From Thermococcus sp. JdFR-02 (GTDB lineage: Archaea; Methanobacteriota_B; Thermococci; Thermococcales; Thermococcaceae), in the NCBI GenBank assembly GCA_002009975.1, contig MTLP01000042.1, positions 62,001-126,000 of the forward strand: a stretch of DNA of 64,000 nt, written 5' to 3'. The notes under the pieces are model-generated. The model was not told where the DNA came from. It made no database searches and saw only the letters and a program-made list of their open reading frames with translations. Shown one piece after another: positions 56,205-63,690 of this stretch. Made by a program: the position numbers and the translations under genes. How positions within the stretch are numbered: the stretch's first letter is position 1; the number at the start of each line of letters is the position of its first letter.

Positions 56205-56603
56205 ATGGGCAATATTGAAGCACCTATAATTGGAAAGGATGCTTTGGGAAGAAAAGTTGAAGATTTAAGTGTAGTTTCTTGGTGGGGAATAGACAGAAAA
56301 GAAATTGAGTGGTATCCAAAGATTGAGTACAATAAATGCTCTAGCTGTGGTCTGTGCTTCGTAACCTGTGGAAGAAGGGTCTTTGATTGGGATATCGAAA
56401 GTGTAAAGCCAATAGTTGCTCATCCATACAACTGTATGGTTGGATGCAACACTTGTGCAATGCTTTGTCCATGTGAGGCTATTAAATTTCCAGATAAAAG
56501 CTATCTAAGAAAAGTGACTACTAAAGCAAGAGTAGTTAAGAAGGCTTTGGCAATAGTTAATTCCATAGTATTAAACAGTGAAAAAGAAAAATCAAAGACC
56601 TAA
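56205..56603 (+). CDS. Ferredoxin-like protein with two [4Fe-4S] motifs
   Basis: A 132-residue protein with CX2CX2CX3C at Cys45, 48, 51, 55 and a second motif CX3CX2CX3CP at Cys77, 81, 84, 88, plus Cys90. The spacing in the second set differs from the usual CX2CX2CX3CP by one residue. The start is the ATG at 56205 after GGTGACAAAG. It is the last plus-strand gene before the copper island and ends in a 12-base overlap with the convergent thioredoxin gene. Confidence 0.85.
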   Translation: MGNIEAPIIGKDALGRKVEDLSVVSWWGIDRKEIEWYPKIEYNKCSSCGLCFVTCGRRVFDWDIESVKPIVAHPYNCMVGCNTCAMLCPCEAIKFPDKSYLRKVTTKARVVKKALAIVNSIVLNSEKEKSKT

Positions 56604-56903
56604 AAGCTTTTTTAACTTTTCTTCTACCTCTTCCTTTCTTCGCACCAAATTTTGTCTCCCGACTTCCTTACCTTTTCTCAAATAGACAAGCGTTGGCACA
56701 TTTAAGATATCAAAGCTCTGAGCAACCATTAAGTGCTTATTTATGTCAACTTCCCAAAACTTTACGTGTCCATACTCTTCACTCAACTCTTTCATGAAAG
56801 GCTCAATCATTCTACAAGGAGGGCAACCAGGAGAAGAAAACCAGAGAAGGGCATATTTTGCCCTCTTAATTCTCCCAAAGTCACCATCAAATTCTTTTAT
56901 CAT
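56592..56903 (-). CDS. Thioredoxin
   Basis: A 103-residue thioredoxin-fold protein with active site CPPC (Cys27-Cys30) and the cis-Pro in ILNVPTLVYL. The ATG at 56903 follows GAGGTGAGAGTG. It lies 10 bases after copA on the same strand and is likely to be cotranscribed with it, giving a thiol reductant for copper handling. Confidence 0.9.
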   Translation of the reverse strand: MIKEFDGDFGRIKRAKYALLWFSSPGCPPCRMIEPFMKELSEEYGHVKFWEVDINKHLMVAQSFDILNVPTLVYLRKGKEVGRQNLVRRKEEVEEKLKKLLGL

Positions 56904-56913
56904 CACTCTCACC

Positions 56914-59322
56914 TCAAATCCTAGCTTTCTTCAAAACTAACGAATTTGTAACCACACTAACACTACTCAATGACATTGCTCCAGCAGCCCATTCTGGTCT
57001 AAACTGTATCCCAAAGAGGACATAAGCTAAGCCAGCCGCTATTGGTATTAAGATTATGTTGTAAATCATAGCCCAGAAGAAGTTTTGCTTAATTTTTGAG
57101 AGCGTCTTTTGGCTGAGCTTTATTGCCTTAACCACATCTCTTAAGTCATTCTTCATGAGCACTATTTCACCGCTTTCCATTGCAATATCTGTGCCCGATG
57201 ACACGGCTATACCTATGTCTGCTTGGGCTAAAGCAGGTGCGTCGTTTATACCGTCTCCCACAAAGATAACTACTTCTCCCTTTTCTTGAAGCTTCTTCAC
57301 TTCGTTAGCCTTATCTTGAGGCAAAACCTCTGCTAGGACATAGTCTATATCAAGTTGCCTTGCTATTGCATTTGCAGTTCTTCTGTTATCTCCTGTGATC
57401 ATTCCAACTTTCTTACCCATCTTGTGAAGCTCTTCTATCGCTTCTTTTGCATGCTCTTTTATTGTATCTGCAATCCCAATAACGCCCACTATTCTGCCAT
57501 CAATTGCAACTATTATTGCTGTTTTTGCCTCATCTTCAAGCTTATGAAGAGCTTTTTCTACACTTTCTTCAATTGCGTAGCCGTTTTCTTTGAATAATTT
57601 CCTGTTTCCTGCTAAAATCTCTTTTTCATCTACTACTGCCCTCACACCTTTTCCTGTTATTGCCTCAAAGCTTTTCGGCTCTTTAATCTCTAAGCCAAGC
57701 TCTTGGGCTTTTCTAACTATTGCCTCTCCCAATGGATGCTCTGAACGCTTCTCTGCTGAAGCTACTAAGCTTAAAAGTTCTTTCTCATCCATGCCAAAAG
57801 GTATTATATCAGTAACCTCTGGCTTTCCTTTTGTTAGTGTTCCCGTTTTATCAAAGAGCACCACAGTAGCTTTCCTCGCTATCTCAAGCACTTCACCGTT
57901 CTTAATTAAAATTCCCATTTCAGCACCTTTGCCCATTCCAACAGTTAAAGCCGTTGGAGTTGCTAGACCAAATGCACATGGACAGGCTATTACTAAAACG
58001 CTGATTAGTGTTGTAAATGCAAAAATCAAAGGCTGCTTCGCTATAAAACCCCAATATACAAAGGATGCAAGGGCAATTGTTAGAACTATTGGAATGAAAT
58101 ATGTGACTACTTTATCGGCTATTCTTTGAATGGGTGGTCTTGTGTTTTGTGCTTCCTCTACAAGCTTGATAATTTGGGCTAAAACAGTATCTCCACCAAC
58201 TCTTTTTGCCTCAATTTTCAAAACTGAGTTTTTGTTGATCGTTCCACCAATTACCTCATCTCCTTTCTTCTTCAAGTTTGGAATTGGCTCCCCAGTTATC
58301 ATGGACTCATCGACATAGCTTTCCCCTTCAATTACAACGCCATCAACTGGAACTTTTTCTCCGGGTTTCACTATTACAGTATCTCCAACTTTAACCTGCG
58401 TTATTGGAACCTCGATTTCCCTCCCATCTCTAATTACAGTAGCTTTTTTAGCTTGAAGTCCCATTAGCTTTTTAATTGCCTCGCTTGTCCTTCCTTTTGC
58501 AACATGTTCCAAATATCTTCCAAGGAGAAGGAAGGCTAACAATAGCACACTTGCTTCGTAAAAGTTGTACTCCTTGGGCAAAATTCCAATTGTTGCTAAA
58601 ACACTGGCTATATAAGCTGAACCCACACCCATTGAATACATTACATCCATGTTGAGCGTTTTGTGTCTTAATGCTCTTATAGCGGCTAAGAACATCCCCT
58701 TCCCAGAATAAGCAATAACTGGCGTTGCTAATGCAAGCTGTATCCACAGCATATATGGAATCTCAAAATCAAATCCAAAAAGCCATCTATAAGTCATTAA
58801 GGTTATTATTCCTCCGAATGTCCAAGCAACGATAAGTTTTTTCTTCATGTCTCTTAGATAATTCTCCCTCGCTTCCTTTTCTATGTCTATGCTCTCTTCC
58901 CCCTCGACCCCTAAAAACTTATATCCAAACTCTTCTATTGTTTTTTGAATATCGTCCATGCTAATTAATGTTGGATCATAACTAACTGTAGCTTTCTCAG
59001 TTGCAAGATTAACTTTAACATCCAGAACTCCTGGAAGTTCCTTCAACGCCATTTCTATTGTTTTCACACATGATGCACAACTCATGCCGCCAATTTTAAT
59101 TATTGCATTCCTCTTTTCCCTAACAACACCGTAACCAACACTTTCTATCGCCCTAATTATTTGAGTTATACCCACTTTTGATTCATCAAATTTAATATAT
59201 GCACTTTCTGTTGCTAGATTAACTTTTGCCTCTTTTACACCATCCAAATCTTTAAGTGCCATTTCTATGGTTTTAGCACACGATGCACAACTCATTCCAG
59301 TAATCTTAATATTCATCTCCAT
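56914..59322 (-). CDS. copA: Copper-exporting P1B-type ATPase CopA
   Basis: An 802-residue pump with two N-terminal heavy-metal-associated domains (MXCXXC motifs GMSCASC near residues 8-14 and GGMSCASC near 77-84). The transmembrane CPC is in ACPCAFGLATP, the phosphorylation site is DKTGTLTKG, the SEHPLG motif and GDGINDAPAL are intact. It exports Cu+. The ATG at 59322 lies behind GGAGGTGG. CopR is encoded divergently. Confidence 0.96.
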   Translation of the reverse strand: MEMNIKITGMSCASCAKTIEMALKDLDGVKEAKVNLATESAYIKFDESKVGITQIIRAIESVGYGVVREKRNAIIKIGGMSCASCVKTIEMALKELPGVLDVKVNLATEKATVSYDPTLISMDDIQKTIEEFGYKFLGVEGEESIDIEKEARENYLRDMKKKLIVAWTFGGIITLMTYRWLFGFDFEIPYMLWIQLALATPVIAYSGKGMFLAAIRALRHKTLNMDVMYSMGVGSAYIASVLATIGILPKEYNFYEASVLLLAFLLLGRYLEHVAKGRTSEAIKKLMGLQAKKATVIRDGREIEVPITQVKVGDTVIVKPGEKVPVDGVVIEGESYVDESMITGEPIPNLKKKGDEVIGGTINKNSVLKIEAKRVGGDTVLAQIIKLVEEAQNTRPPIQRIADKVVTYFIPIVLTIALASFVYWGFIAKQPLIFAFTTLISVLVIACPCAFGLATPTALTVGMGKGAEMGILIKNGEVLEIARKATVVLFDKTGTLTKGKPEVTDIIPFGMDEKELLSLVASAEKRSEHPLGEAIVRKAQELGLEIKEPKSFEAITGKGVRAVVDEKEILAGNRKLFKENGYAIEESVEKALHKLEDEAKTAIIVAIDGRIVGVIGIADTIKEHAKEAIEELHKMGKKVGMITGDNRRTANAIARQLDIDYVLAEVLPQDKANEVKKLQEKGEVVIFVGDGINDAPALAQADIGIAVSSGTDIAMESGEIVLMKNDLRDVVKAIKLSQKTLSKIKQNFFWAMIYNIILIPIAAGLAYVLFGIQFRPEWAAGAMSLSSVSVVTNSLVLKKARI

Positions 59323-59411
59323 GAGGATCCACCTCCAATTGATATTCTATTAAGAAGGATTATTGAAGTTATTTTTTGACAAAGTGTAAATATAGGCAGG
59401 AAAATTTTTAT

Positions 59412-59448: not shown

Positions 59449-60051
59449 ATGGTAAAGCTTGATGAAGTTGATCTAAAGCTGATCTATTTGCTGAGAGATA
59501 ACTCAAGACTTAGCATTTCCGAGTTGGCAGAACTTTTAGGTTTAAGTAGACCAACAGTAAAGTCTCGGTTAGAGAAGTTAGAAAAGGAGGGAATAATTCA
59601 AAAATATACTATAAAGCTCTCTCCAGAACTTGAGAGGGCAGAAAACATAGTAATAATGATTGTAAAAACTGAAGACCCCGAAAGTCTTGAAAACTTCAAC
59701 GAAATCATTGAGATTAACAAATTTACAAGCAAAAAGCACGTCATAAAAGTTGCTGTGGAAAACATGAAACAGCTCAGACAAGTCATTGAAGGAGCAGGGT
59801 TTGAAGTAATTGAAATAATGCCTGTCTTAGAGATGAGGGAGAGGGAGAGACCTATTAAGATAAGGGTTCCATTCAAGTGTGATTACTGTGGGAAAGAGAT
59901 TGTTGAAGAACCTATCGTTTATAAATACCGCAACAAAGTTTATTTCTTCTGCTGTGAGACTTGCTTTAGAGAGTTTAAAAAAGCGAGGGAGAATATAGAG
60001 AAATTCAAACTATCTGAAGGACAAAAGGTAGAGGAGGCTCACAAGCACTAA
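59449..60051 (+). CDS. copR: CopR, Lrp-type copper regulator with TRASH domain
   Basis: A 200-residue regulator. The N-terminal helix-turn-helix is Lrp/AsnC-like (about 1-55). The C-terminal TRASH domain has Cys144, Cys147, Cys168 and Cys172, with an extra Cys169, a metal-sensing arrangement shown to bind copper in related Thermococcales regulators. It ends AHKH. The reading frame overlaps the convergent CcdA-like gene end by 42 bases. Regulation of copA is inferred from the divergent layout. Confidence 0.92.
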   Translation: MVKLDEVDLKLIYLLRDNSRLSISELAELLGLSRPTVKSRLEKLEKEGIIQKYTIKLSPELERAENIVIMIVKTEDPESLENFNEIIEINKFTSKKHVIKVAVENMKQLRQVIEGAGFEVIEIMPVLEMRERERPIKIRVPFKCDYCGKEIVEEPIVYKYRNKVYFFCCETCFREFKKARENIEKFKLSEGQKVEEAHKH

Positions 60052-60444
60052 TGCAACTCCCATAGCTAAGTCTCCCCTACCACTTATTTTTGAGAAGCTG
60101 TTTAGAGCATTTTCTATTTTTGGAATTTTCTTTCCATAGTGGAAACTAACGGTAATTAGCAGTAAAGGTGCGATGAATATCAAGTTGTAAAATGCTAAGA
60201 GAGAAATTTTAACTCCAAAGCTAAAACTTTGGGAAAGAATTGAGGTAATGAGCAAATAGGGCGGTAGAGTGCATATCAACGATAAAACGGACATAACAGC
60301 TCCAACTGCAAAAGCACTTAATGGAGATGTTGCTTTTTCCAAAATTTTGTTACTTTTTTCTTTGAATGGATTTGAAAGCCTAACTTCCAGTGTTCCGAGA
60401 GCTCTTAGAATTTTATAAATCCCGACAGACAAACTAAACGCCAC
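60010..60444 (-). pseudogene. CcdA-like membrane protein, C-terminal part (frameshifted)
   Basis: This 144-residue frame continues the membrane protein that starts in the previous frame. It has SPLSAFAVGAVMSV followed by SLICTLPPYLL, similar to the second-cysteine loop of CcdA (CTGGPY), and more helices. It would begin at a GTG inside the end of the first frame with no ribosome binding site; joining the two frames by one base shift near 60434-60444 gives a CcdA of normal length. A real break, a programmed shift or a sequencing error are all possible. Confidence 0.6.
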
Positions 60445-60676
60445 CTGTGAAGGAAAGCCCTATTTTTAGAATTTTTTGCTCATCAATTAAGGCTATCATT
60501 GAGAGCAGGAAAATTATCATAATGAACATGATTGGTCTCAGGGAATTTAAAAGCCCAAAAACTATAAGAGAAACTATTAAGCCTTCAGAATTAAATTCCT
60601 CAAATCCAGAACCATAAACATTTGGAAAAAAGAGTAAAGCGATCAAAATTGTAATTATTAAACCTCTTAACTTCAA
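60434..60676 (-). pseudogene. CcdA-like membrane protein, N-terminal part (frameshifted)
   Basis: An 80-residue frame that starts most plausibly at TTG 60676 (GAGGTG upstream) with a signal-like segment, then EGLIVSLIVFGLLNSLRPIMFIMIIFLLS. CcdA proteins have DGxNPC at this place; here it is NSLRP, so the first redox cysteine is missing. The frame ends in GLSFTGG-V-stop, and the next frame begins AFSLSVGIY, which reads as its continuation. Confidence 0.6.
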
Positions 60677-60686
60677 AAGCATCACC

Positions 60687-61040
60687 TCAATGTTCCATTG
60701 AAGGCTTACCTACGCGGAAAATTTCCACCGTTGAATTATCCTTCATACGTATATTGACTTTATCTCCTCTTGAGAGACATGGAACGTCAATTGGATGAGT
60801 ATAACGTACTTTTATTACCTCCTCATTAGCTTGTATTATAGCCGTACATGTAAGTGTTGTATAAGATTCATTTGGCACGCAATCTCTGTCTGCTAAAACC
60901 TTGGCACTTTCAGCATTTATTGGCTTTCCTTCAACCAAAGTGCCAATAAAAACATCTTGTCGCTCATTATTGTTTAGGGTTATAGAAAAAAGCAAAAAGA
61001 GGCTAGATAATACTATAAAAAGCAAGAAAAGCTTTTTCAT
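60687..61040 (-). CDS. Small secreted or membrane-anchored protein
   Basis: A 117-residue protein with an N-terminal hydrophobic signal or anchor (about 1-22) and a beta-rich remainder with three cysteines (two in DRDCVPNESYTTLTC). It ends KPSMEH. Not recognised as a known copper protein. The position between the Met/His-rich gene and the CcdA-like gene indicates a periplasm-like or external thiol or metal role. Confidence 0.65.
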   Translation of the reverse strand: MKKLFLLFIVLSSLFLLFSITLNNNERQDVFIGTLVEGKPINAESAKVLADRDCVPNESYTTLTCTAIIQANEEVIKVRYTHPIDVPCLSRGDKVNIRMKDNSTVEIFRVGKPSMEH

Positions 61041-61072: not shown

Positions 61073-61393
61073 TCATTCTTCATCTTCTTCAAAGCCCATC
61101 ATTCTTTCGCAATACTCGTGCATTTCCTTCCAGCCTTCGCCCATGTGCTCTTCCATCTCTTTTTCCATTTCTTCGTGCATTTCTGCAAAGTCTCCACTTT
61201 CCATAAATGCTTCCATTTCCTCATGCATGTCTTCATTCATCATTCCATGACCCATCATTCCACCGTGCATTCCCCAAACGGGCATTCTGAAACTTTTTTC
61301 ATAGTTATAGTTAAATCCCGAGTGAGCTAAGCCTATTGGAATTGCGATGAGCGCTCCAAGTAAAAATCCAACTAATATTGACTTCCACTCCAT
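61073..61393 (-). CDS. Met/His-rich membrane-anchored protein, candidate copper binder
   Basis: A 106-residue protein with one N-terminal membrane anchor (about 5-24) followed by an external tail with 16 Met and 6 His among residues 25-106, in repeated MH, HGGMM and MGHGMM patterns (MH pairs at 42/43, 56/57, 72/73 and 91/92). The ending FEEDEE is acidic. Such composition is typical of Cu(I) binding proteins. The ATG at 61393 is behind GGTGATAAAG. It is the first gene of a four-gene minus-strand set. Confidence 0.75.
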   Translation of the reverse strand: MEWKSILVGFLLGALIAIPIGLAHSGFNYNYEKSFRMPVWGMHGGMMGHGMMNEDMHEEMEAFMESGDFAEMHEEMEKEMEEHMGEGWKEMHEYCERMMGFEEDEE

Positions 61394-61549
61394 CTTTATC
61401 ACCTTCTTTTGTTGTTCTATCTATATACTTTGAGCTAAATGCTAATAGGCTTATTATTTTCAATATGAAAAAGTCATACATTTTGATTTGCCGAAGTGTA
61501 AGAACAAAATTAATTTAAAGTTTCCATATAGTTAAGTTCAGTGAGAAAG

Positions 61550-62158
61550 ATGTCCAAAACGGCTAAAAAGTATGATAGATTTTCGAAGATTTATGACCTT
61601 TTTGAAAGTCCAATGGAGATGAGAGCTTTTTCAAAGTACAGAAAGAAAGCGTTAAGCTTAGCTAGGGGTAAAGTCCTTGAAGTAGGTGTCGGGACTGGCA
61701 AAAATTTCCCCTATTATCCAAAAGATGTTGAAGTAATTGGGATAGACTTCAGCAAAGGAATGCTTGAAAAAGCTGAAAAAAGAAAGAAGGAGCTCGGTTT
61801 AGAAAATGTTAAGCTTCTCCTGATGGATGTACAAAACTTGGAGTTTGAGGACAATACTTTTGACACCGTTGTTAGCACCTTTGTGTTCTGCACAGTGCCT
61901 GATCCAATTAAAGGGCTAAAAGAGGTTTATAGGGTTTTAAAACCGGGAGGAAAGGCGATATTTTTGGAGCATATGAAAAGTGAATCAAAGCTTTTGAACA
62001 TTCCACTCTACCTAATGGACCCGATAATGAGAGCACTGGTGGGCACTTCAATGGTGAGGGAAACACAGAAGAACATTGGAAAAGCTGGCTTTAGGATAGA
62101 AAAGGTTGAAAATCTCTTTTTTGACATTGTGAGGTTCATAATTGCTACAAAAGATTAA
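61550..62158 (+). CDS. Class I SAM-dependent methyltransferase
   Basis: A 202-residue methyltransferase with motif I LEVGVGTG near residues 44-51, VIGIDFS and VLKPGGKAIFLEH. The last 40 residues are hydrophobic, suggesting a lipid or small hydrophobic substrate. It ends 2 bases from the convergent Cys-rich regulator gene. The ATG at 61550 is preceded by GTGAGAAAG. Confidence 0.85.
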   Translation: MSKTAKKYDRFSKIYDLFESPMEMRAFSKYRKKALSLARGKVLEVGVGTGKNFPYYPKDVEVIGIDFSKGMLEKAEKRKKELGLENVKLLLMDVQNLEFEDNTFDTVVSTFVFCTVPDPIKGLKEVYRVLKPGGKAIFLEHMKSESKLLNIPLYLMDPIMRALVGTSMVRETQKNIGKAGFRIEKVENLFFDIVRFIIATKD

Positions 62159-63014: not shown

Positions 63015-63048
63015 TAGCAACTTGCCACGAAGCGCAAAGGGATGTACT

Positions 63049-63690
63049 ATGGAGAGGGAGTATAAGGCTCTAATCATCTCAGGAGAGCTTTTAATTTTTG
63101 TTACTCTACTTACTCTCTTGTCAGGATTTTTCACGACCAAGAACTTTTTAGTGGACAAATGGATAAGCTATTCCTCTGCCTACAGAATTCACACAATTAT
63201 ACTCCCAATAATCTTTATTCCCCTCCTTTACGTCCACTCCCTCGCAGGCATTTTGATAGCTACCGAGAGAGTAAGAGCTTTGAACAAAGGCATAATAAGG
63301 AAGACCATAATGGTAATCTGGACACTCATATTTATGGGGTTGCTAGTACTTTACTTTGCCCAACCTGAATCAATAAGCTCTGAAAATAACAGCAGGAGTA
63401 TTTTAGCTCAGACTGCATCTCCTATTACAAATACCGAAAAAGAGGGGATAATCTTAACTCTCAAAGAGGTGTCAAAACATAACCAATCAAATGATTGCTG
63501 GATCATCGTAGAAGACAAAATTTACAACGTAACTAGCTTTCTAAGTATTCACCCTGGAGGGAGTGATGCCATAATTCCTTATTGTGGAACAAATGCGACC
63601 GAGATATTTTTCAGCAAGCACGATCAGGGGGCGTATGAGACACTACAACAATACTACATCGGAAAAATTGGGAATGTGGTTGAAAGATAG
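63049..63690 (+). CDS. Membrane protein with C-terminal cytochrome b5-like domain
   Basis: A 213-residue protein. Three transmembrane helices (about 7-27, 46-70 and 84-104) are followed by a Ser/Asn-rich linker and a cytochrome b5 domain (137-209) with the HPGG motif (His168) and a second candidate haem ligand His191. Helix 2 carries His48 and His63. The start is the ATG at 63049. The gene follows the DUF2892 gene by 34 bases and is probably in the same operon. Confidence 0.85.
   Translation: MEREYKALIISGELLIFVTLLTLLSGFFTTKNFLVDKWISYSSAYRIHTIILPIIFIPLLYVHSLAGILIATERVRALNKGIIRKTIMVIWTLIFMGLLVLYFAQPESISSENNSRSILAQTASPITNTEKEGIILTLKEVSKHNQSNDCWIIVEDKIYNVTSFLSIHPGGSDAIIPYCGTNATEIFFSKHDQGAYETLQQYYIGKIGNVVER

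Follow-up and report, generated by a model that had tools for sequence, protein, structure and literature searches.

What does the small protein rich in methionine and histidine contribute to the copper locus of Thermococcus sp. JdFR-02? Its gene lies close to those of a copper ATPase and a copper regulator. We analyzed a 64-kb stretch of DNA around it (the window; all coordinates are window positions) and named the protein MHP. The locus contains the following features.

56592-56912, minus strand: thioredoxin (CPPC), directly behind copA, export signal absent
56914-59322, minus strand: CopA, copper P1B-type ATPase with two HMA domains
59376-59390, unstranded: CopR-like box with one mismatch, between copA and copR
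59449-60051, plus strand: CopR, Lrp/AsnC HTH plus archaeal TRASH with a His-containing C-terminus, convergent with the MHP operon
60010-60685, minus strand: broken gene for an SfLAP-like membrane protein (initially called CcdA-like), as overlapping ORFs 60434-60685 and 60010-60444
60687-61040, minus strand: P117, a 117-aa protein with an N-terminal hydrophobic helix and a predicted six-strand beta domain
61073-61393, minus strand: MHP, a 106-aa, probably exported Met/His/Cys protein (from ORF, family alignment, distribution, and selection)
61457-61471, unstranded: CopR box TTTTCAATATGAAAA, between MHP and the divergent methyltransferase gene
61541-62158, plus strand: SAM-dependent methyltransferase, divergent from MHP and sharing its CopR box

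The MHP ORF runs from an ATG at 61393 to a stop at 61073. This ATG is the better start because the Shine-Dalgarno-like GGTGAT precedes it and the relatives align from MEWKS. A single N-terminal hydrophobic segment (residues 6-23) is followed by an 83-residue tail, in which 16 residues are Met, 7 are His, 1 is Cys, and 24 are acidic. The first-pass annotation described a Met/His-rich, membrane-anchored protein with sixteen Met and six His; the ORF is real and the Met count stands, but there are seven His (six when the juxtamembrane His24 is omitted) and a Cys in addition. With Met at 2.1% and His at 1.6% as the background of the window, the Met and His excess of the tail has a binomial probability of ~2e-14, and when the ORFs of the 64-kb window are ranked, MHP (0.28) has over twice the Met+His content of the next-richest one (0.12). 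The tail has eight MxxxM spacings versus 2.8 expected from shuffling (p = 0.0004), an arrangement that would put ligands on a single helix face. The AlphaFold model, of low confidence (pLDDT 55), predicts helices at residues 54-65, 69-84, and 86-98.

MHP is a conserved family: 43 of 94 Thermococcales genomes, from all six genera sampled, encode it (44 with a looser threshold, one being a poor match), and it was absent from the remaining genomes searched in the class. The dN/dS values of ten pairs were 0.035-0.27, as befits a real gene subject to purifying selection. Sixteen positions are invariant in 28 sequences (W3, K4, S5, G9, G13, I16, A17, P19, A23, H24, G26, W88, E93, C95, E96, and M99). 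The tails contain 10-18 Met each, with HxxMxxxMxxxM in 26/28 and HxxCxxxM in 27/28. All 28 sequences carry the N-terminal pattern P-x-[GS]-x-A|H-[ST]-G, and in every aligned relative Pro(-5), Gly/Ser(-3), Ala(-1), and His(+1) fit a signal-peptidase site. The single anchor proposed initially is consequently uncertain, although the one hydrophobic segment is there: the pattern fits both an anchor and a cleaved signal peptide, and the segment may be either. Cleavage would leave the invariant His24 as residue 1. Profile searches of the 28 members against Pfam and NCBIfam returned chance-level matches only, and neither PDB sequence searches nor plasmid tblastn gave a match. Homology to any known copper protein was thus not found by profile and PDB sequence searches.

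High Met content, taken alone, could be compatible with other roles. The tail might mainly be a sacrificial antioxidant, or MHP might be a surface protein whose copper induction is incidental to metal binding. Arguing against this, Thermococcales are anaerobes, and the His and Cys positions are conserved as strongly as Met, with metal-site-like spacing (HxxM, HxxCxxxM). MHP is nevertheless Met-rich and probably exported, and antioxidant enzymes also belong to the P. furiosus copper regulon (PMC7830388). We regard this explanation as very improbable.

CopA and CopR, named as the neighbors in the first-pass annotation, were both confirmed, and the ORF at 59449-60051 scored above the cut-offs of PF13404 (52.2 bits) and of the C-terminal PF08394 (72.4 bits), as expected of an archaeal CopR. 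The arrangement is conserved in relatives, where about 40 loci show the order Trx-CopA(-) / CopR(+) facing [SfLAP-like, P117, MHP](-) / methyltransferase(+); this contradicts a scenario in which no relative has MHP beside copA. MHP is usually convergent with copR. At 14 of 41 MHP copies, it faces copR alone, with P117 and the SfLAP-like gene both missing.

Other features of these neighborhoods were also recorded. The methyltransferase gene is conserved at most loci. Three genomes have two MHP/copR regions, namely G081 (L097), G012 (L078 and L079), and G055 (L089 and L090), and one of the copR copies of G081 is frameshifted. Many relatives encode a second, CopB-like P-type ATPase near MHP (including L072:11241-13412, L073:14377-16602, L093:992-3205, and L100:17116-19272), whose N-terminus is extremely rich in Met and His (up to 42% over 83 residues). 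A short Met-rich protein (RFGMPRWMHMMRRFG...MDMGPGMDM) is found in the copper neighborhoods of several relatives (L101:4493-4954, L100:15673-16119, and L082:14230-14676). In the window, the membrane protein at 63022-63690 has a C-terminal cytochrome-b5-like stretch, IHPGGSDAI, recognized by eye, which is unusual in an anaerobic archaeon.

The box at 61457-61471 is an exact match to the published CopR motif TTNNCAWWWTGNNAA (PMC7830388), lies 63 bp upstream of the MHP ATG, and is the sole exact motif in the window outside any ORF. Two further exact matches were rejected as CopR sites; both are inside ORFs and look like chance. Among relatives, 34 of 41 MHP upstream regions contain the box with at most one mismatch, 10 of them exactly (0.06 expected), and nearly always at a fixed distance, roughly 65-75 bp from the alignment start. 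A box within this threshold was also present in 33 of 35 copA upstream regions. MHP is present in 43 of 49 CopR-bearing genomes and in none of the 45 without CopR (Fisher p ~1e-20). Six CopR-bearing genomes lack MHP; it is therefore not essential to the copper system. In two of these six, a membrane protein of ~100 aa starting MFEEIKMMLENVNPDFLVHMEEGEWGWHEMM adjoins copR (L117:6939-7259 and L118:6580-6882), and this protein is possibly a functional substitute for MHP.

The most copper-induced gene of P. furiosus, PF0738.1n, rises 290-fold, and the induction is absent in the copR knockout (PMC7830388). It is transcribed divergently from PF0738, the two being separated by a CopR site (PMC7830388), and it is convergent with copR, PF0739 (PMC5658578). 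MHP shares this arrangement: it is convergent with copR and divergent from the gene at the PF0738 position, the methyltransferase, with the CopR site between. Both genes are conserved mainly in Thermococcales. They differ in that PF0738.1n sits alone between copR and PF0738, whereas the JdFR-02 window has two further genes there. Wherever a single gene separates copR from the methyltransferase in the relatives, that gene is MHP, and for this reason we place PF0738.1n in the MHP family. MHP is thus the probable ortholog of PF0738.1n by gene position and synteny rather than by sequence. PF0738.1n was left as a hypothetical gene with no function assigned, and the closing remark of the same study suggested the induced hypothetical proteins as possible additional sequestration systems (PMC7830388). 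The system had been called undescribed in the first-pass annotation, which is correct for the function of the protein; that the P. furiosus gene responds to copper and is controlled by CopR had been published.

An alternative is that MHP is a dedicated partner of CopA that takes Cu(I) at the pump exit or tunes the pump, like CusF or another export chaperone, rather than a bulk sponge. MHP nearly always adjoins copA, PF0738.1n and copA respond to copper together in P. furiosus (PMC7830388), and the discrete invariant H92, C95, and M99 resemble one defined site rather than bulk binding. However, the number of Met per tail exceeds the need of one site, one genome (G001) has MHP on a separate contig from copR and copA, and the genomes that keep CopR without MHP indicate that CopA can work alone. 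We consider a dedicated partnership quite unlikely.

The adjacent P117 was found solely in Thermococcales, in 22 of 99 genomes of a phylum-level search, and C54, C65, H82, C88, M115, and H117 are invariant. Its predicted structure, of good confidence (pLDDT 89), is a helix plus six strands. A fold search against the PDB gave no match below E 0.3, a PDB sequence search gave no match, and Pfam and NCBIfam profile searches gave chance-level matches only. CopK was rejected as an identity, since NCBIfam peri_CopK scored 15.2 bits against a cut-off of 123, which is chance level. Judged from these sequences, P117 represents another undescribed family, in which Cys, His, and Met positions are invariant.

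For the third gene of the group, the CcdA-like identity initially proposed was not supported. The two overlapping ORFs are a disrupted gene, in which an 83-nt deletion relative to intact relatives removes one membrane segment and shifts the frame; most relatives have one ORF of about 245-260 aa. The best Pfam match of the full-length relatives is SfLAP (PF11139, E down to 1.4e-9), with the member scored in detail falling narrowly under the curated cut-off (32.9 vs 35 bits). A CcdA/DsbD carrier was rejected, as DsbD_TM scored lower than SfLAP (17.5 bits vs a cut-off of 27.1, E 0.0026) and the family has one conserved Cys column (21/21), whereas CcdA has two conserved membrane Cys. No intact close copy was found in the genome, where the closest other copy is a 36% paralog. 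Loss of 83 nt is unlikely to come from base-call error but might reflect an assembly error. Slippage at a short direct repeat, GGTGGCGTTT, could explain the deletion. Several more loci carry a disrupted copy of P117 or of the SfLAP-like gene, with MHP mostly intact.

These observations bear on the idea that MHP, the CcdA-like protein, the 117-aa protein, and thioredoxin form a copper/thiol defense system that moves reducing power across the membrane. P117 does have three invariant Cys, thioredoxin adjoins copA, and the sub-threshold DsbD_TM match would fit a carrier. However, the thioredoxin has no export signal and is apparently in a separate transcript from the MHP group, and the SfLAP-like gene is broken and offers one Cys; a transmembrane thiol relay is therefore unsupported. 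P117 and the SfLAP-like protein are also optional, as the MHP copies that lack both demonstrate. We find such a system scarcely credible.

We return to an external copper protein. The external sponge or chaperone of the first-pass annotation has good genomic support from the exact CopR site, the strict co-occurrence with CopR, and the syntenic ortholog PF0738.1n, and its location, predicted from sequence, is probably external. We consider it likely that MHP is a copper-binding protein which Thermococcales make under the control of CopR and export, and that it acts as a sponge or a hand-off chaperone, copper binding being predicted from the ligand pattern. CopR, seated on the box between MHP and the methyltransferase gene, would sense copper and turn MHP on together with copA; this switching has been shown for PF0738.1n in P. 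furiosus, and the box and synteny suggest it for JdFR-02. The N-terminal hydrophobic segment would export MHP, which may then stay anchored or be cleaved before His24. Outside the membrane, its acidic Met/His/Cys helices could bind copper from CopA efflux or from the medium. As a sponge or hand-off chaperone, MHP would lessen copper re-entry and damage to surface proteins. Where present, P117 would probably be a second external copper-site protein on the same transcript as MHP, and the SfLAP-like membrane protein may be an accessory that was lost in the JdFR-02 genome. A more elaborate version is unlikely, though worth stating: MHP and P117 would be a new archaeal external copper-handling pair, with MHP cleaved to carry His24 as residue 1 plus the Met/His/Cys helices, and P117 supplying a new beta fold, in which Cys, His, and the Met-x-His at the terminus make a second copper site fed by CopA or MHP.

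New here are P117 itself and, for the MHP family, a likely function and a conserved pattern of ligands; the copper induction of the probable ortholog PF0738.1n was already known. Through this family, a gene that is probably the most strongly copper-induced one in a model archaeon, and that the published regulon lists as hypothetical, acquires a concrete identity and a function that can be tested; the anatomy of MHP offers a candidate mechanism for the sequestration suggested in that study (PMC7830388). If the proposal is true, copper buffering outside the membrane extends to anaerobic hyperthermophilic archaea, which lack a periplasm of the bacterial type. P117 adds a second uncharacterized family, one that conserves Cys, His, and Met and for which the searches of solved structures found no relative.

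Bacterial external metal-binding proteins provide points of comparison. In CopC, removal of the signal leaves a His at the N-terminus, a feature that MHP may share. External copper binding, as in the CopC-type and CopK bacterial proteins, is proposed for MHP too, although MHP had no profile match. SilE and PcoE are periplasmic silver/copper sponges, and SilE folds on binding silver (PMC5008109). Like them, MHP is a small, probably exported His/Met-rich protein with helix-forming His/Met motifs, and its gene neighbors that of a P-type ATPase in a metal-resistance locus. Homology to SilE/PcoE was not found in the NCBIfam/Pfam searches on the 28 members or in the plasmid tblastn, and SilE motif 1 (MxxHxxxxxHxxM) occurs in 3/28 MHP sequences and motif 2 (HxxMxxxHxxM) in 0/28. 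MHP also differs from SilE in being far more acidic, in its invariant Cys, and in its possible anchor. By analogy rather than homology, a SilE-type metal sponge that folds upon binding is most likely the closest working model for MHP.
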